Part shown: one piece after another, positions 1-8,767 of the stretch | Numbering within the stretch: position 1 is the first letter of the stretch | Layout of the letters: each line of letters opens with the position of its first letter | Assembly (NCBI GenBank): GCA_017995195.1 | Contig: JAGOJI010000015.1 | Coordinates: 1 to 33,379 of the forward strand | DNA from: Cloacibacterium sp. | Lineage (GTDB): Bacteria > Bacteroidota > Bacteroidia > Flavobacteriales > Weeksellaceae | Length of the DNA: 33,379 nt | Direction of reading: 5' to 3' | Notes under the pieces: generated by a model | What the model was told of the DNA's origin: nothing | Databases searched by the model: none | What the model saw: only the letters and a program-made list of their open reading frames with translations | Translations under genes and position numbers: made by a program

Positions 1-822
1 ACAATATCATAAATTTTTCTACGGAAAAATATAAAAAATGTGAAAAGACAAGAACTTATCCTGGATACTTTAGAAAAAATTGGACATCAGGATTAAATTT
101 TGGTCGTTAATCCGGAAGTAATAGAACGAAAATATCATCTAAAAATTAAAAAATTTACCAACAAGTACTTGGCTTATCTTTACGATAGCACCATGCGTAA
201 TCCTGTAGGTCACATTATAGATGTTTTTGATAAAGTATATTCATTCGACAAAAAGGACATAAAAAAATATGGATTTTCAGCGACAACGAATTATAATTAT
301 TTATTGAAAAAGAATGTTAATGATCAAGAAAATAAATTGGATTTATTTTATATAGGTTCTTATGATGAAAGATTGAAAGTTTTATATAAACTTTCTGAAA
401 AGTTAGATGATTTTAAATTAAAATATCAATTTGTAATTGTTGGAAAAAAATCTCGAAAAAAAGCTTTATTTAATTCATCAAAATTACACAGTAAATTTTA
501 TTTTACCACGAAAAGAATTCCACATGCTGAAATCCCCAATTATTATGAAAAATCTCGTGTGATTTTGGATTTGGTACGTGAACATCAGTCGGGACTCAGT
601 TTTAGGATTTTTGAAGCCATGGCTCTGCAAAAGAAAATAATCACAACAAATCCTTTTGTTAAAGAGTATGATTTTTATAATTCCAACAATATTTTGCTGC
701 TGAATAAGGACTTGTCAAATCTTGAAAAGTCTTTTTTTGAAACTGATTATCAAGAGCTTTCGTCGGAAATTTATCAAAAATATACGTTAGAAAATTGGGT
801 GAAAAACATTTTTGATTTATGA
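1..822 (+). pseudogene. CgeB-like glycosyltransferase, N-terminus interrupted by stops
   Basis: The intact part runs from a TTG at 100 to the TGA at 820-822 (240 aa). It resembles capsule-locus glycosyltransferases of the CgeB-like/Glyco_trans_1_2 type. The C-terminal stretch HQSGLSFRIFEAMAL followed by EYDFYNSNN is the sugar-nucleotide-binding half, and the last residues ENWVKNIF fit a normal C-terminus. The same frame upstream reads like the missing N-terminal domain (LILDTLEKIGHQD, stop, ILVVNPEV), but it is broken by TAA at 94-96 and TAA at 10-12. The family is normally around 300 aa or more, so about a quarter is missing or untranslated. The stop overlaps the next start (ATGA at 819-822), so the two genes are translationally coupled. 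The pseudogene call is inference. A 240-aa protein from TTG 100 or a sequencing error cannot be excluded, and sequence left of base 1 is not visible. Confidence 0.6.
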
Positions 823-2003
823 ATAAAATAAAACATATCTTATTTGTTACCAAGGAGTTTCAATGTGATTTTCAGAAAAATTCCGGAGGAACCGGAGTTT
901 TTTATAATAATTTGAGTCAGGAATTGCTAAGAATGGGCTATCAAATTTCTGTATTTGGTTCATCAAGAAACAGTTTTAAGATTGATGATGAAAACTTTTC
1001 GTTGTTATTTGTGAAAGATTATTTCAAAAAAAATAAATTGGCGGAACTTTTTCGATCTTTGACTGGTAAATTCTCTTTTTTAGAGAAATTTCATTACCTA
1101 ATATATAATTGGGAAAAGAATTATTTGAAGAAAAATTTGAAAACATTTATTTCGGATAAAGAGATTGATGTAATTGAAACACACGATTGGGAAGGGCTTT
1201 GTACCATTGTTGAGGACTTGAAGATTCCGTATGCTGTAAGATTCCATGGATCGTGGTCGGTTTTGAATAAATTCTTTGGATACGGTGCTTCGAAAGGAAA
1301 AATTATTGAAGAGAAAAGAGCTTTTGCAAATGTCAAAAATTGTATTACAATTTCGAAATTTAATGAGAAAACCGTTCGTGAGACTTTTGGTGACAAAAAA
1401 TTTCATTTGATTTATAATGGTATTGATACCGATTTTTATAGACCTTTATCAAATGTAAAAATACAGCCAAAATCTATCTTCTATTTGGGGAGTGTTTCCG
1501 TGGAAAAAGGTGCAGAAATTGCCTTTGAGGCATTCTTGGAAATAGTAAAGATCGAAAAAAATGCTACGTTGCATTTCATTGGGAAAGAAACTCATCTTGT
1601 AGAAAATTTACAGAAAAAAATCTCCGAAAATTGTTTAGAAGATAAAATTATTTTTTACGGAAAGAAAAACCCAAATGAAATTGTCGAATTAATCAGCAAA
1701 GCAGAGGTCGTGTTTTTTCCATCAAAAGGGGAGAACTTTAGCTTGGCACTCTTAGAGGTTTTAGCAATAGGAAAACCGGTAATTTGTTCTGATATTGAAT
1801 CTTTTCGTGAAGTAATAAAAGATGGAAAAACTGGAATGATTGCAAAATCTAAGGAAGATTTTGTAGAGAAAACTCTTTTTATTTTTAATAATAAAAATTT
1901 TTCTGATAAAACTTCATTGCAGGGAAGTGATTTAATAAAAGAAAAGTTTAGCCTTAAAAACATGGCAGAAGAAACAATAAATTATTATAAAACTATAATT
2001 TAG
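819..2003 (+). CDS. Glycosyltransferase family 4
   Basis: 394 aa, GT-B fold. The N-terminal domain starts with KHILFVTKEF and carries the glycine-rich donor loop NSGGTGVFYNN at residues 21-31. The C-terminal domain begins near IFYLGSVSVEKG and holds the retaining-transferase EX7E motif (E305 and E313 in GENFSLALLE), followed by GKPVICSDIESFREVI. It should transfer a sugar from a nucleotide donor to a lipid-linked oligosaccharide at the cytoplasmic face of the inner membrane. The start ATG overlaps the stop of the gene before it by 4 bp. The next gene starts 5 bp after the stop, so it sits in the polysaccharide operon. Family assignment is firm; donor and acceptor cannot be read from the sequence. 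Confidence 0.92.
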   Translation: MNKIKHILFVTKEFQCDFQKNSGGTGVFYNNLSQELLRMGYQISVFGSSRNSFKIDDENFSLLFVKDYFKKNKLAELFRSLTGKFSFLEKFHYLIYNWEKNYLKKNLKTFISDKEIDVIETHDWEGLCTIVEDLKIPYAVRFHGSWSVLNKFFGYGASKGKIIEEKRAFANVKNCITISKFNEKTVRETFGDKKFHLIYNGIDTDFYRPLSNVKIQPKSIFYLGSVSVEKGAEIAFEAFLEIVKIEKNATLHFIGKETHLVENLQKKISENCLEDKIIFYGKKNPNEIVELISKAEVVFFPSKGENFSLALLEVLAIGKPVICSDIESFREVIKDGKTGMIAKSKEDFVEKTLFIFNNKNFSDKTSLQGSDLIKEKFSLKNMAEETINYYKTII

Positions 2004-2008
2004 ACTAT

Positions 2009-2428
2009 ATGATGCAGGACTTCAACAAACCATTTATAATAGAATTTCCAAAGATTGGAAAGAGTTCTTTAGGATATATCTCAATAGCAGAAAAAGAAAC
2101 ACTCCCATTTATTCCAAAAAGGATATACTGGACGTATTTTACCCCCGAAGATGTAGAAAGAGGTGGACATTCGCATTACGATTTGCAACAAATCTTGGTA
2201 GCTGTAGCGGGACAGATTACGATAAACACAGAGCTACAGAACGGGGAGAAAGAAACTTTTGTACTTAATTCTCCAAACTATGGACTCTACATTCCCAAGA
2301 AATGCTGGAGAACTATGAAATATACTCATAATGCTGTACAAATGTGTATTGCCAGTAATGAATATGATGAGAAAGACTATATACGAGAGTATCAATTATT
2401 TTTGAATGAAAAAAAATTATATCCTTAG
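2009..2428 (+). CDS. fdtA: dTDP-4-keto-6-deoxyglucose 3,4-ketoisomerase, FdtA/QdtA-like cupin
   Basis: 139 aa, a single cupin of the WxcM-like C-terminal family. The family motif is clear: RIYW at 38-41, then RGGHSHYDLQQILVAVAG, with the active-site His pair H54 and H56. Near the C-terminus is YDEKDYIREY, matching the YDExDYIRDY ending of FdtA and QdtA. The reaction is isomerisation of dTDP-4-keto-6-deoxy-D-glucose to the 3-keto sugar, the first committed step to dTDP-Fuc3NAc or dTDP-Qui3NAc. Position 57, often Lys in relatives, is Tyr here. The aminotransferase (5624) and acetyltransferase (3598) that finish the sugar are in the same operon. FdtA (galacto product) and QdtA (gluco product) cannot be separated by eye, so the symbol is provisional. 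Start: ATG 2009, with another ATG directly after it. Confidence 0.85.
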   Translation: MMQDFNKPFIIEFPKIGKSSLGYISIAEKETLPFIPKRIYWTYFTPEDVERGGHSHYDLQQILVAVAGQITINTELQNGEKETFVLNSPNYGLYIPKKCWRTMKYTHNAVQMCIASNEYDEKDYIREYQLFLNEKKLYP

Positions 2429-3632
2429 AGGAAAAAAAATTATTTACGCAATAAAATCCCTATTTCTTCCTCGAAAGAAGAAGATTGTTTTTTTAAAGCC
2501 TTTAGAAAGTATAGGTGAAGATTCTATAATTTTAGAAAAAATTGTGGAAAAAGGTGGTATGGTTTTGTCTTATAAACCCAAGAAAAAAGGAGATTTAATT
2601 GAAAGTAAAATAGTTTATTCAAAAGAAGCAAGACTCTTCAAATTAAAAAATGTCTATATAGAATCTCAAACAACAGGGGTTCTAAATCATAAAAAATCTA
2701 CATTTTATTACGAAAAATGGCATAATGATAATAAGAAAATTTATCTCTACAAAAACAAATTCATACATTTACATTCTGACAAATATGCTCAAATTGGCAA
2801 CTTGAGTGTAAATAAAACACAAAGCACAGGTGTTTTTTTAGGAGGTACTTTTATATTTAACTATTTTCATTTTATGATGGAGGTAATGAGTAAAGTGAAG
2901 TATATTAGTTCTATACCAAATATTGAAAACTACCCAATTTTAATAGACAAGTGCATTGCAGAAAATACAAACTTTCAATTTTTCATATCTCTGTTTTTGC
3001 CTAAGAATAGAATTGTATATTTAAAAAACAATTTATTGTATAGAATCGAGAAATTATGGTATATTACTTCCCCAAATATAACAATTCCAAATATAGATTT
3101 AGGAGAAAAATACCTTCCGGAATATACCGCAATACGCGAATCTTCTGTTACATATCTTCGTAACTTTGTACTTCAACATTATTTAAAAAACATTCCTTCA
3201 ATACAGTTTTTTTCAAAAATATTTTTAGCAAGGAAATCAAAAACCCGAATTTATAATCAAAGCGAAATATTGGAAATTGCTTTAAACTATGGCTTTACTG
3301 CAGTTTATTTAGAGGAATTAAGTGTTTTGGAGCAAGCCCATATCATGCAAAATGCAGACTATATTGTAGGCCCTACCGGTGCCGCTTGGACAAACCTTCT
3401 TTTTGCCAAAAAAAATGCAAAAGGTCTTATTTGGATGAGTGACGTTTGGGGAGATTTCTCAGCATATTCCACTATTGCTCATTATGTTAACTTTGATTTA
3501 AATTATATTATTTTTGAAAAAAAATCAAATGATTTCCATGAAAACTATTTACTTGATAAAGAAGTTTTCACGAAAAATATAGAAAAATTATTAACTGATG
3601 AATTCCACAATAAAAATACATCATTTAGCTGA
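2406..3632 (+). CDS. Glycosyltransferase family 61 (DUF563)
   Basis: 408 aa. The C-terminal half matches the GT61/DUF563 family: [20 protein letters not shown], then [19 protein letters not shown] around residues 322-340, then a hydrophobic end. The N-terminal about 150 residues are Lys/Tyr-rich and not recognisable; [13 protein letters not shown] (about 155-168) resembles the family's conserved HF/HW segment. It probably adds a sugar during repeat-unit assembly. The gene overlaps the cupin gene by 23 bp and the following acetyltransferase by 35 bp, in different frames, which points to translational coupling. Many bacterial GT61 proteins lie in capsule or LPS clusters, consistent with this position. 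Substrate unknown. Confidence 0.8.
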
Positions 3633-4059
3633 TATTCAGACAGATAAAATTGGAGAAAATACTACTGTTTGGCAATTTTGCGTAATTTTACAAAATGCAG
3701 AAATTGGGAAAAATTGTAACATCAATTGTCATGTTTTTATAGAAAACAACGTGAAAATTGGTAATAATGTAACGATAAAATCTGGTGTGCAAATCTGGGA
3801 CGGAATTACTATAGAAGATGATGTTTTCGTTGGTCCAAATGTAACCTTCACCAATGATAAAAATCCAAAATCTAAAAATATAGATTTTAAACTCCAAGAA
3901 ACTGTTATCAAAAAAGGAGCTTCAATTGGTGCGAATGCTACTATTTTACCAGGAATAATAGTTGGAGAAAACACAGTAATTGGTGCTGGAAGCGTAGTAA
4001 CAAAAAATGTTCCTGATAACGAAACCTGGGTGGGTAATCCCGCAAAAAAAATAAAATAA
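3598..4059 (+). CDS. fdtC: dTDP-3-amino-3,6-dideoxyhexose N-acetyltransferase, FdtC/QdtC-like
   Basis: 153 aa, a left-handed beta-helix protein built from hexapeptide repeats (for example [43 protein letters not shown]). FTNDKNPKS at 84-92 is typical of the FdtC/QdtC/WxcM N-terminal acetyltransferases, and CHVFIEN (H45) matches the region of the catalytic histidine. The C-terminus GNPAKKIK is the standard end of this fold. It should acetylate the 3-amino group made by the 5624 aminotransferase using acetyl-CoA. The start ATG 3598 lies 35 bp inside the GT61 gene; beginning at that ATG gives the full family N-terminus. Galacto or gluco specificity is undecided. Confidence 0.85.
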
Positions 4060-4062
4060 TTT

Positions 4063-5615
4063 GTGGAAAAAAAAATTAATTTATCTGTATTTTTTAGTCT
4101 TTCCTTTATATTTATTCTCTACTCGATTTTAGTAGGAATTGATTTTATAGATTCTGGATACATCATATCTTTATCTAAAAAATACATAATGGACAGGTTA
4201 TTTATAAAAATTTTGATTATGTGAGACCATTTGTCACACCTGTTCTTTGGAGTATCATACTTCGTCCTTTCTGGGGATTTACAGATTATTTTTATATCAT
4301 TTGTAGGGGTTTAGTAGTGTTTCAATTGGTTGTAATTTCCTATAATATTTCCCGAATCCTGTTACAAGTTCATTTTTGGAATTATAAAATGTGGATTCTT
4401 ATTCCTTTTTTTACAATCATAAATATTCATACTTTTCCGATTATGCCTTGGCACACAATCGATGGACTTTTTTTCTTAAGTTTTTCCGCTTATTATTTGT
4501 TCGAAAGAAATTTTTTTTGGGCACTCTTTTTTTCAAGTATTGCAGCAGCAACTAAACAACCTTATTTTGCTACTACATTTTATTTATTATTTGGAATTAT
4601 TTTATTTAGAATGAATTTTTCTTATAAATTTGATTATAAAATTATCGTTTTTCTTCTACTTATAATGTTTATGCTTTATGATTATCATATTTATGAAGGA
4701 TTATTTTATTATAAAACATCTAAACGTGAAAACCTTGTCGAGCTTTATAATGCAGGAATAAAAGTATATTTAGAAGCGATAAAGAGTTGGTTGATTTTGT
4801 TAGTAGTAGTTGTTGTAAGTTTAATAATTTATTATAAAAATAAAAATAAAAATAAATGGTTTGAAATTTTAGTGGTCGTATTGTTTTGCATTTCTCTTAT
4901 AGTACCGATTTTTAATTTTATTTTGGGCAGAGATGAGCACAATTTACATAGAATTATCAATTTACTCTTGCCTATGTTTTTTGTAAGAGAAATAATTCGA
5001 GTATATAAAAAGAGGAATATAGACTTTGTTTTTTATCAAAACTTATTTGTGTTACTTATAATTTGGAGCTCATCAATTTCATGGGGAGCTAATACTATTT
5101 TTCTTGCCTTACCATTTTTCTTTTGTCTATTCAAAATCAATCTTTTTTCTCCCAAATCCAACTTTATTTTGAGTGGAATTGTTTTTCTATTTCTTATTTT
5201 AAGAATTTTTAATCCTTATGTCGAAAAAAATATTTTTGAGACAAATTACAGAAAAATAAAAAACTATCCTCTTCTCTCAGGTATTTATACGAGCTCTGAA
5301 CATTTAGAATATCTACAGGAAGCAAAAGAAATTTCGGAAAAATATAATAAAAATGTGTTGTTTTTACCAGGCTTTCCTTTAGCGACAATTTATCTAGAGA
5401 AAAAAAATAATAGAGCAAATTGGGAAATGGATATTGAGTACCCCAACATCGAAAAGGATTTATCTTTACTAAATGACAAAAATTTAATTTTTGTTTTGGA
5501 TAAAAAAGAAATTATAAGTTCGGAAGATGACTTCTATAAAAGTAGCTTTACAAAAATAGTTCGAAAAAACATAGAAAAGATAGACTCTACAACTTATTTT
5601 TACATCTATAAATGA
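4063..5615 (+). pseudogene. Multi-spanning membrane protein of polysaccharide locus, frameshifted near codon 40
   Basis: The C-terminal 464 codons are open from GTG 4221 to 5615 and encode a protein with about 9-11 hydrophobic segments and a soluble tail, like GT-C/ArnT-type or DUF2029-like membrane glycosyltransferases. The true start looks like GTG 4063, 3 bp after the previous stop. That frame gives a signal-anchor helix and then DFIDSGYIISLSKK. At the A6 run 4177-4182 the reading must move back one base to continue as IHNGQVIYKNFDYVRPFV, which is the kind of sequence expected at this point in such proteins (DxGY...NGQxxYKxFDYxRP). One extra A would give a single 517-aa protein. As written, the first frame ends at TGA 4222-4224 and the second has no start before GTG 4221. 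Either a pseudogene, a phase-variable gene, or a sequence error. Confidence 0.7.
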
Positions 5616-5623
5616 AATAACTT

Positions 5624-6727
5624 ATGATAAAGTTTCTTGATCTTCAAAAAATTAACCTTCTTCACCAAACAGAAATCGAAAAAGAACTATTGGATACTTT
5701 CAGAAGTGGGTGGTATTTATTAGGCGAAAAAAACAAAAATTTTGAAAAATCTTTGACCGATTATTTAGGTGTACGTCATGTAATAGGTGTTGCAAATGGT
5801 CTTGATGCTTTGAGATTAATCCTGCGAGCGTATATAGAATTGGGAATTATGCAGCAGGGCGACGAAATTATTGTTCCGGCAAATACTTATATCGCCTCTA
5901 TTTTAGCCATTACGGATAATGGTTTAAAACCTGTTTTAGCTGAGCCAAATATTGAAAATTATAATGTTGATGTCTCGGAGATCGAAAAAAATATTACTTC
6001 CAAAACAAAGGCAATAATGTTAGTTCATTTGTATGGAAAAGTCGCTTTTGACGAAAAAATAAAACAAATTGCACAAAAATATAACCTAAAAATAATTGAA
6101 GATAATGCACAAGCAATCGGTGCCGAATACAAAAATACGAAAACCGGAAACTTGGGAGATGCGTCTGGATTTAGCTTCTATCCCGGGAAAAATCTTGGAG
6201 CATTAGGCGATGGTGGAGCAGTTTCTACAAACGATGAAATGTTGGCAAAATGTATTAGAAGTTTGGCAAATTATGGGTCTGCAGAAAAATATATCAACCA
6301 ATACAAAGGACTAAACTCAAGATTAGATGAATTGCAAGCAGGAATTTTAAATATTAAACTAAAATATCTCAATCAAGAAAATAAACGTAGACAAGAAATT
6401 GCTAAGAAATATTGCACAGAAATAAAAAATCCCAAAATAATTCTCCCCAATTATAATCATGAATTTCCAAATGAAAACGTTTGGCATTTATTTGTTGTAC
6501 GAACTGAAAATAGGAATAATCTTCAAAAATATTTAGCCGACAATGGTGTACAAACATTGATTCATTATCCAATTGCACCACATCAACAAGAGTGTTACCG
6601 AGAGTTTTCCCGCTTGTCCTTTTCAATTACAGAAAAAATTCATCAAGAGGTTTTGAGCCTGCCAATCAGTCAGGTTTTGACCGACGACGAAGTAAATAAA
6701 GTAATCTGTTTAATCAATAATTATTAA
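5624..6727 (+). CDS. fdtB: dTDP-3-keto-6-deoxyhexose 3-aminotransferase, FdtB/QdtB-like (DegT/DnrJ/EryC1)
   Basis: 367 aa, a PLP-dependent sugar aminotransferase. It opens with FLDLQKIN, typical of this group. The PLP lysine is K189 in [17 protein letters not shown]160 of IIEDNAQA would contact the pyridine nitrogen, and [13 protein letters not shown] is present as [10 protein letters not shown]. It should transfer an amino group from glutamate to C3 of the 3-keto sugar made by the 2009 ketoisomerase. The product is then acetylated by the 3598 enzyme. rmlA and rmlB, which make the precursor, are not in the window and must lie elsewhere. Length is normal for the family. Start ATG 5624 follows the membrane-protein stop by 8 bp. 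Confidence 0.88.
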
Positions 6728-6733
6728 TTCTTT

Positions 6734-7639
6734 GTGGAAAATCCTTTAGTAAGTATCATTTTAATTTCAATGAATCACGAAAAATTCATTGCACAAGCTT
6801 GTTATTCTGCTTTAAATCAAACCTATTCAAATATCGAAATTATTTTTTTAGACAATAAATCTGACGATAAAACCTTTGAAATTGGTAATGAAATCTTATC
6901 TAAAGGAAAGTTTCCTTACAAAGGAATCCAAAATACAGAACGATTTGGTGTTTCTAAAAATTTAAATACTCTAGTTTCTTATGCAAGCGGTGAGTATATT
7001 TCAATACTTTCTGGTGATGATTGGTATGCAAACAATATAATCGAGCGAAAACTACAATTTTTAGAGAACAATAAAGCCGATATTTTATTATCAGACGGTT
7101 ATAAATATATCCAAGAAACAGGCGAAACCAAAGATGTTTATAAAAAAAAAGAAAAATCTAATATTATAGAATCTCTGGATAACTTTTTCGAAAAGAATGT
7201 AACTGAAAACAAAACAGCAAATGTAGGTACTTTTATAAAAAGAGAACTATTAATAAAAGAACCTTTCGATGAAAACGTACAAACTGAAGACTGGGACATG
7301 AATCTTAGGCTTACATCGAAGGGATATCAATTGAATTTTGTTGATGAAAAATTGTTTTTTTACAGAATTTTAAACTCCAGTCTGTCAAGAAATATTGATG
7401 CAATGGAGGAATCCTATCGAATAGTAACAAATAAATATATTCATTTCATCAATACGAACAAAAAATTAAAAAAAGAATACCTACTAAAGCTACTTTTCTA
7501 CAAATACGAGAAGCTTTTACAAAATTCAAGTGAAATGGAAAAAAAAAGAATTCTTAAAGCTTGGAAAATAGAAAAAAACAAAATTAAAAATCCTCAACCT
7601 TTAAGGTTTTTCAAAAATATATTTTTAAAACTCCAGTAA
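6734..7639 (+). CDS. Glycosyltransferase family 2
   Basis: 301 aa, GT-A fold. The N-terminus PLVSIILISMNHEKFIAQAC is the standard GT2 nucleotide-binding strand. D40 in IIFLDNKSDD and the DxD-like SGDDW at 93-97 are the donor and metal positions, and TEDWDMNLRL corresponds to the catalytic ED region. The C-terminal about 80 residues are Lys-rich and probably contact the membrane. It starts with GTG at 6734 in the context TTTGTGGAAAA, the same context as the start proposed at 4063. It follows fdtB by 6 bp and is the last + gene of the polysaccharide operon. Donor sugar cannot be predicted. Confidence 0.9.
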   Translation: MENPLVSIILISMNHEKFIAQACYSALNQTYSNIEIIFLDNKSDDKTFEIGNEILSKGKFPYKGIQNTERFGVSKNLNTLVSYASGEYISILSGDDWYANNIIERKLQFLENNKADILLSDGYKYIQETGETKDVYKKKEKSNIIESLDNFFEKNVTENKTANVGTFIKRELLIKEPFDENVQTEDWDMNLRLTSKGYQLNFVDEKLFFYRILNSSLSRNIDAMEESYRIVTNKYIHFINTNKKLKKEYLLKLLFYKYEKLLQNSSEMEKKRILKAWKIEKNKIKNPQPLRFFKNIFLKLQ

Positions 7640-7704
7640 ATCTATTACTTTACAAAATTATGTTGTTATAATGTTTTTTAAATTACGGCTAATACAGAAA
7701 AAGA

Positions 7705-7760
7705 CGTGAAATCATTGTGTAACATAACTTCTATTATGAAAAATGATTTGTTTTATCACG
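7705..7760. terminator. Weak long-loop inverted repeat between convergent genes
   Basis: In the 141-bp gap between the convergent genes ending at 7639 and 7781, AAATCATT at 7709-7716 pairs with AATGATTT at 7742-7749, and CGTG at 7705-7708 pairs with CACG at 7757-7760. The loop is 25 nt and there is no clean T tract, so the terminator role is only a guess. Nothing else is recognisable in the gap. Confidence 0.25.
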
Positions 7761-7780
7761 TATGTTTGTAATCTCTACTA

Positions 7781-8707
7781 TTATAAATTACAATCAAAGT
7801 ATCTTTCCAAAACCTTTAAACTACAATAATCCTCTACATTTTTATTCCAAAACTGTTCGCAAAATTCGTGGGCATTTTTTATTATTTCTAAGCATTTGTC
7901 GGGGTTAGCAATATAGAAGTTCAGTTGTTCTTCCAAGTTGGAGTAATCGGGCTTTATTTCTATAAAATGTCTGCCACTTTGGAGTTTCCCTTCCATAAAC
8001 CAAGTTTCGTATTTGGGTTTCGGCATCACTGCGATAGAGTTGCTACTCATAATCCATTTTAGGTTGGAGGCTACATCGTTTCCTTCCAAACTTAGGATAA
8101 ATTTATGGTTTAGGTGTTCCTGTAAACTACTTTTGGGCTTTATCCATTTAGGATCGCCACCGTTCTTGTTGATTTGTCCTAGATCGCAAAGTGGATGTTC
8201 AAAATATTTTTTGTAAAAATCATGGCGATGACTTTGAAAAACAGCTGCTCTTCCGTAGAGTATATTTTTCTTTTGGAAAAAAGGTTGGTCGTCTTTTATC
8301 CAAACAAAATGTCTTACTTTGTCTAGATTCAACAAGATGCTGTTTTGATTATGGTTGCCAATAGGGCGACTTTTTACAATGCTTGGCAGATCAGGAATAT
8401 GAATGACATCGCCAAAAACAAAATTTAAAGGTAAATTTTTATCAAAAAATCTGGCGTATTCCCAAGTGTCAAAATAATAAGCTTTCGGTGTTTTGGGTTT
8501 TTCTAAATCTTTGATGAAAGTAGTCCCCCAATTTTTATATAAAGAAGTTTTACAGTAGTAATCAATTCTTTCTCTTATAAGTTGTTCTTCGGATAATTGA
8601 GACTCTAATGCTAAAATTTTTGTTTTAAAATCTCTGCCAATAGGGAAGAGTAGATGGATATATCCTTTTAGGTAGAAAAATAACTTGTTTTGCTTCTTTA
8701 TCTTCAT
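7781..8707 (-). CDS. Glycosyltransferase family 90 (CAP10-like)
   Basis: 308 aa from the chosen start. The C-terminal half matches the GT90/CAP10 domain: HKFILSLEGNDVASNLKWIM, then SSNSIAVMPKPKYETWF, then HFIEIKPDYSNLEEQLNFY. GT90 proteins of bacterial surface-polysaccharide loci transfer sugars (xylose or related) to LPS or capsule; the donor here is unknown. The open frame extends to a TTG at 8734, but that codon sits next to the -7 promoter box at 8736-8743, so translation from ATG 8707 is preferred, giving a leader of about 20 nt. It is transcribed against the + operon and marks the end of the polysaccharide block. Confidence 0.85.
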   Translation of the reverse strand: MKIKKQNKLFFYLKGYIHLLFPIGRDFKTKILALESQLSEEQLIRERIDYYCKTSLYKNWGTTFIKDLEKPKTPKAYYFDTWEYARFFDKNLPLNFVFGDVIHIPDLPSIVKSRPIGNHNQNSILLNLDKVRHFVWIKDDQPFFQKKNILYGRAAVFQSHRHDFYKKYFEHPLCDLGQINKNGGDPKWIKPKSSLQEHLNHKFILSLEGNDVASNLKWIMSSNSIAVMPKPKYETWFMEGKLQSGRHFIEIKPDYSNLEEQLNFYIANPDKCLEIIKNAHEFCEQFWNKNVEDYCSLKVLERYFDCNL

Positions 8708-8735
8708 GTTATAAAATAACCAATTTGAGACCAAA

Positions 8736-8767
8736 CAAAGATAGATGAATCTTTATTTAGTCCCAAA
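8736..8767 (-). promoter_or_regulatory. Promoter of GT90 gene
   Basis: Reading the - strand, TTTG (8767-8764) is followed after 20 nt by TATCTTTG (8743-8736). This is a full match to the Bacteroidetes sigma consensus TTTG-N19-21-TAnnTTTG. The expected start of transcription is near 8730, upstream of ATG 8707. Confidence 0.8.

Follow-up and report, generated by a model that had tools for sequence, protein, structure and literature searches.

In the glycosyltransferases PimE, ALG6, ArnT and PglB the catalytic aspartate is located in the first loop (PMC12041525). GT-C proteins of the PMT_2 type (PF13231; ArnT/PMT-like) begin with an N-terminal helix and carry paired acids in the loop after it. 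Glycosyltransferases that vary in phase through homopolymers are surface-glycan enzymes with a poly-A run at the frame break, and a published survey of frameshifted genes called phase variation only where a poly-A/T run of 7 nt or longer was close to the frame transition (PMC3711429). The same work describes GeneTack singleton frameshifts, which are validated by homology, lie at a site that is not common to relatives, and represent either a recent indel or a sequencing error (PMC3711429). Finally, the dTDP-Fucp3NAc and dTDP-Quip3NAc cassettes carry an isomerase, an acetyltransferase and an aminotransferase (FdtA/FdtC/FdtB and QdtA/QdtC/QdtB, respectively).

The DNA analysed here is a stretch of 33,379 nucleotides from a Cloacibacterium sp. 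(the whole of which is called the window below), and the subject is a gene for a GT-C-like protein at positions 4063 to 5615, flanked by genes for an FdtC-like acetyltransferase and an FdtB/QdtB-like aminotransferase (Table 1). Like the Fucp3NAc and Quip3NAc cassettes, the window has an isomerase, an acetyltransferase and an aminotransferase around the gene, and by their sequences these Fdt/Qdt-like genes point to a dTDP-3-amino-3,6-dideoxyhexose of the Fuc3N or Qui3N type in the putative glycan; the window fits the two sugars alike. The cassette of Chryseobacterium piscicola has the same gene order as the window. In another relative (G249) the GT-C-like gene stands directly between the GT61 and GT2 genes with no fdtC or fdtB in between, so that GT61 and GT2 are its steadier neighbours, and because such genomes exist its tie to a Fuc3N or Qui3N sugar is loose. 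The GT-C-like gene belongs to a conserved GT61 / GT-C / GT2 glycan cassette. At the left end of the cassette the WaaS/CpsH-family ORF begins inside its profile, so the true start of that gene is further upstream. The cassette region of the window (positions 1-8740) is 29% G+C, while the remaining window is 36%, as would suit a surface-glycan locus that was acquired laterally or evolves fast.

Table 1. Positions of the glycan cassette genes and of the features of the broken gene in the window
Feature	Start	End	Strand	Remarks
WaaS/CpsH-family glycosyltransferase (NF053598)	100	822	+	ORF begins at profile position 78
GT4 glycosyltransferase, cassette neighbour	819	2003	+	
FdtA/QdtA-type dTDP-sugar 3,4-ketoisomerase	2009	2428	+	
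GT61-family glycosyltransferase	2406	3632	+	unbroken in every cassette found
Hexapeptide acetyltransferase, FdtC-like	3598	4059	+	
N-terminal fragment ORF	4063	4224	+	GTG start, 53 aa, TGA 4222-4224; residues 1-40 true N-terminus, 41-53 out of frame
A9 run	4067	4075	+	just past the start codon; encodes EKKI; shares the frame of the N-terminal fragment
A6 run	4177	4182	+	meeting point of both frames; one-base break not placeable to exact base
Second open frame, rest of GT-C-like protein	4179	5615	+	first possible start GTG 4221
DegT-family sugar aminotransferase, FdtB/QdtB-like	5624	6727	+	
GT2 glycosyltransferase	6734	7639	+	unbroken in 18/18 cassettes found

Two reading frames of one gene

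The sequence of positions 4063 to 5615 reads as a single membrane-protein gene that has been broken once by a one-base frameshift. The coordinates and letters of the GTG start, the A9 and A6 runs and the two-frame layout are as they had been given in the first-pass annotation of this DNA. The ORF that starts at GTG 4063 encodes VEKKINLSVFFSLSFIFILYSILVGIDFIDSGYIISLSKK and then 13 frame-shifted residues up to its TGA. The second frame begins with KIHNGQVIYKNFDYVRP and runs on to a stop that ends at 5615; counted from its first possible start it is an ORF of 464 aa (GTG 4221-5615), whose start overlaps the stop of the 53-aa ORF as GTGA. The joined reading of the 53-aa and 464-aa ORFs is 517 aa. 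Hydropathy places a single helix (residues 8-26) upstream of the break, and residues 1-40 of the 53-aa ORF carry this first transmembrane helix (TM1) and a first-loop D..DSG motif, so that the 464-aa ORF is without TM1 and without the first-loop acidic motif.

Homologs were sought in 323 genomes from the same taxonomic family, with one genome per species, and the GT-C-like protein is present in 27 of them including the window's own. Named members in the species collection come from Chryseobacterium and Apibacter and from uncultured bins, all of them Weeksellaceae. In the 26 other Weeksellaceae genomes the homologs, where intact, are single ORFs of about 503-543 aa that match both pieces column for column. 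The closest named homolog is that of C. piscicola (44%, tblastn), which reads DVLDSGYILSLSKKINDGQVIYKDFDYVRPF across the junction slot; the window's DFIDSGYIISLSKK and IHNGQVIYKNFDYVRPF, which meet at the junction, align without a gap to DVLDSGYILSLSKK and INDGQVIYKDFDYVRPF of C. piscicola with 11/14 and 14/17 identities, an agreement that lies far beyond chance. Alignment of the joined 517-aa protein to homologs had been proposed as a check on the split, and it runs end to end and gap-free at the junction; the two ORFs are therefore one gene. The same first reading would have fallen if homologs began at the position of GTG 4221, but none among those found in the 26 genomes does so, which favours the one-gene reading. 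The 464-aa part contains no further lesion and keeps the near-invariant residues of the family, from which the break appears to be recent. The proposal of a one-base split of a 517-aa protein at the A6 run thus stands as far as the split is concerned; for its second part, that the lesion is a change in the length of the A run, the alignment gives no such tie, since the corresponding slot in C. piscicola is AAAAAAG.

Relationship of the family to GT-C glycosyltransferases

What kind of protein was interrupted? Sequence and profile searches of Pfam, NCBIfam, PHROGs and the PDB with the family gave no real match, and hmmscan gave none. Comparison of the family by hhalign with PF13231 (PMT_2) members of the same taxonomic family gave 85.5% in local mode (pair E 5.7e-6) and 96.8% in global mode, values to be read against 85-91% for the positive control (PMT_2 versus GT87) and 0.2% for the negative control (the family versus Wzx flippases); the family versus GT87 gave 2-4%. 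In the profile alignment the first-loop D..D.GF of the family falls on the acidic pair (DE-type motif) of PMT_2 proteins, and its YKDFDYVRPF..P.FW falls on their Y.DKPP..W region. The family therefore has the acidic motif in the first extracytoplasmic loop after TM1 that is expected of GT-C enzymes. Within it D31 (C. piscicola numbering), directly after the first helix, shows a conservation of 90% or more, and its partner in the alignment is the DE/ND motif of the PMT_2 members; D58 of PimE is the described equivalent of this first-loop acid (PMC12041525).

These profile comparisons suggest that the family is probably a distant, polytopic glycosyltransferase of the GT-C type, PMT_2-like, with the N-terminal helix and the paired acids in the following loop that are typical of that type. 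It differs from described PMT_2 proteins in that none of its members is matched by a Pfam or NCBIfam model and in the lack of a significant Foldseek match. The homolog from C. piscicola was modelled with AlphaFold; the model is poor (mean pLDDT 55) and shows, at low confidence, a core of several helices with an alpha/beta domain at the C-terminus. Foldseek with this low-confidence model returned nothing significant (best E 0.5); PimE and ALG12 were listed, non-significantly. With about 27 Weeksellaceae genomes, no Pfam model and a fixed position beside GT61 and GT2, the family looks like an undescribed GT-C-type surface-glycan glycosyltransferase.

Frameshifts and gene losses beyond the window

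The GT-C-like gene is damaged in three of the 26 other genomes. In one assembly of many contigs (G039; L083/L086) the homolog is frameshifted and the two frames meet at a T6 run; in a single-contig genome (G249; L081/L087) it is frameshifted near a T4 run at about residue 420; and in a two-contig genome (G161; L084) only a 146-aa C-terminal remnant is left, away from the cassette. At a background of 1% the probability of at least three such cases in 26 is 0.002, and without the many-contig G039 the probability of at least two in 25 is 0.026, values that rest on small counts from a survey of one genome per species. Wherever they were found (18 genomes each), the neighbouring GT2 and GT61 genes of the cassette are unbroken. 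One GT61 copy (G210) has a TGA within the match, with an open frame of 405 aa and an alignment that extends to query residue 398, and this TGA was taken as its presumed natural end. The GT-C-like gene is thus lost more often than its GT2 and GT61 neighbours and more often than the general frameshift background.

Frameshifts elsewhere were sought with a coding-frame HMM. After ordinary gene overlaps had been removed, 504 kb of this genome contained two clear frameshifts besides that at 4177-4182, and 400 kb of a single-contig relative contained two by inspection, so there is no excess that would mark the assembly as frameshift-prone, within a sensitivity of about 0.8 in mid-gene and 0.12 at 8% of gene length that would let small differences escape. 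The break at 4177-4182 is itself not picked up by this HMM. Both clear frameshifts in this genome lie away from long runs. One splits ilvE, the branched-chain aminotransferase gene (G000:C45, about 1148-1245; L041). Its neighbour ilvD is intact and ilvC is apparently intact, cut only by contig ends; the ilvE break rather resembles a consensus error or a very recent mutation, with an incipient auxotrophy also possible, and its position beside these genes suggests that at least one frameshift in this assembly may be a consensus error. The other separates the N-terminal part from the C-terminal OmpA part of an OmpA-domain outer-membrane gene with TSP_3 repeats (L021 reverse strand, rc 7696-7760), and no homopolymer is present at the frameshift site. 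In a single-contig control genome (G187) there are apparent frameshifts in a GntR/MocR-like regulator and in a GT2-like gene (L104 and L107).

Origin of the break

We give a probability of roughly 0.6 to the reading that the break is a real, recent, non-programmed and inactivating one-base indel, that is, an ordinary gene loss. A single such indel about 40 codons past the start would inactivate a polytopic GT-C-type glycosyltransferase of the surface-glycan cassette. Ribosomes that start at GTG 4063 would yield a stub of 53 aa that ends at 4222-4224, and a product started at GTG 4221 would be without the first helix and without the acidic loop motif, the site of the GT-C catalytic base, so that no active enzyme would be expected and the glycan would be without the sugar that the GT-C-like enzyme adds. 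An annotation that relies on start codons alone would list the 464-aa ORF as a complete protein despite its missing helix and likely catalytic loop. The repeated loss of the gene may also have a link to phage sensitivity.

The gene could instead be intact in the organism, with a single base dropped from an A-rich stretch in the draft assembly. That draft is in 182 contigs and 89% complete, the two frames meet within a homopolymer, the remaining ORF is clean and ilvE is split in the same assembly though the neighbouring ilv genes look intact, all of which would fit such a consensus error. Against it, the density of detected frameshifts is no higher than in the single-contig relative, and neither of this genome's two other clear frameshifts falls on a run of at least 6, so nothing hints at a systematic error in homopolymers. 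The 415 kb of coding sequence examined contain about 1,290 A runs of at least 6 on the sense strand, almost all of them without a detected break (at the limited sensitivity of the scan). Other lineages, moreover, lose the GT-C-like gene more often than its neighbours, and because this loss also exceeds the general frameshift background we weight a real indel above a consensus error, which we regard as possible but on balance unlikely. The case resembles the GeneTack singletons in that the frameshift is validated by homology and its site is not shared by relatives, and is unlike them in that the GT-C-like gene also suffered independent breaks in further genera or species (PMC3711429). The pattern of loss could mean that selection repeatedly favours inactivation of this gene in the Weeksellaceae, through indels at different runs and for example under phage or immune pressure on the surface glycan. 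As such a hot spot the A-rich gene would behave as a slow, unordered on/off gene with no dedicated contingency tract; we think this rather improbable.

The first-pass annotation had pointed to phase variation of surface sugars. On this reading slipped-strand mispairing at the A6 run (or the A9 run) would toggle the enzyme, and the assembled clone would be off. Surface-glycan glycosyltransferases are typical phase-variable genes, this break falls on a homopolymer towards the 5' end of its gene, the A9 run is near the top of the coding run lengths of this genome (6 sense A9 runs in the 415 kb), and A runs of at least 8 in the cassette exceed those in codon shuffles (11 versus 4.85 expected; 0.8% of shuffles), yet runs of at least 9 are in no such excess (3 versus 2.2 expected). 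The proposal fared poorly in other respects and is now quite improbable. A run of 6 is short and common here (about 3 per kb of coding sequence for runs of at least 6) and is below the survey's 7-nt poly-A/T minimum; the 50 nt on either side of the break hold no run of at least 7, the next being the A9 run about 100 nt away. That A9 run is in the open frame and cannot rescue the broken one, since one base gained or lost in it leads to an early stop and cannot compensate for the break. The longer runs in the broken gene (A9, T8, A8 and several of 7) all keep the frame, and intact homologs carry in-frame runs of up to A9 and T10. Nor is the A6 slot conserved: C. piscicola has AAAAAAG there and most other homologs have GTAGGAAGA or similar mixed sequence, and the breaks in other lineages do not recur at it but lie at different sites (a T6 run, near a T4 run, and a large truncation). 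Thus the gene is like the homopolymer phase-variable glycosyltransferases in its role and in the poly-A at its frame break, and unlike them in the length and lack of conservation of that run, in its in-frame longer runs and in the positions of its relatives' lesions. Could programmed -1 frameshifting, slippage in transcription, or termination and reinitiation at the GTGA overlap still turn the two pieces into a functional protein? The overlap of GTG 4221 with TGA 4222 is a plausible layout for coupling and poly-A is slippery, but the homologs are single ORFs, so that neither a frameshift nor a split is conserved, and slippage at A9 meets a stop at once. A programmed -1 frameshift was rejected on this lack of conservation together with the absence of an in-frame A AAA AAA heptamer (TCT precedes the run) and with RNA downstream of A6 that is no more structured than its shuffles (z = -0.5). 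The layout of the letters would allow reinitiation at GTG 4221, but this would give a second product that lacks TM1 and the first-loop acids and, with them, the expected catalytic loop. We consider a functional two-piece protein of this kind extremely improbable, and prefer ordinary loss through a single indel.

Two more A9 runs, of a length that is rare in the coding sequence of this genome, are found in the window, at 7142-7150 and 7539-7547, both inside the intact GT2 gene.
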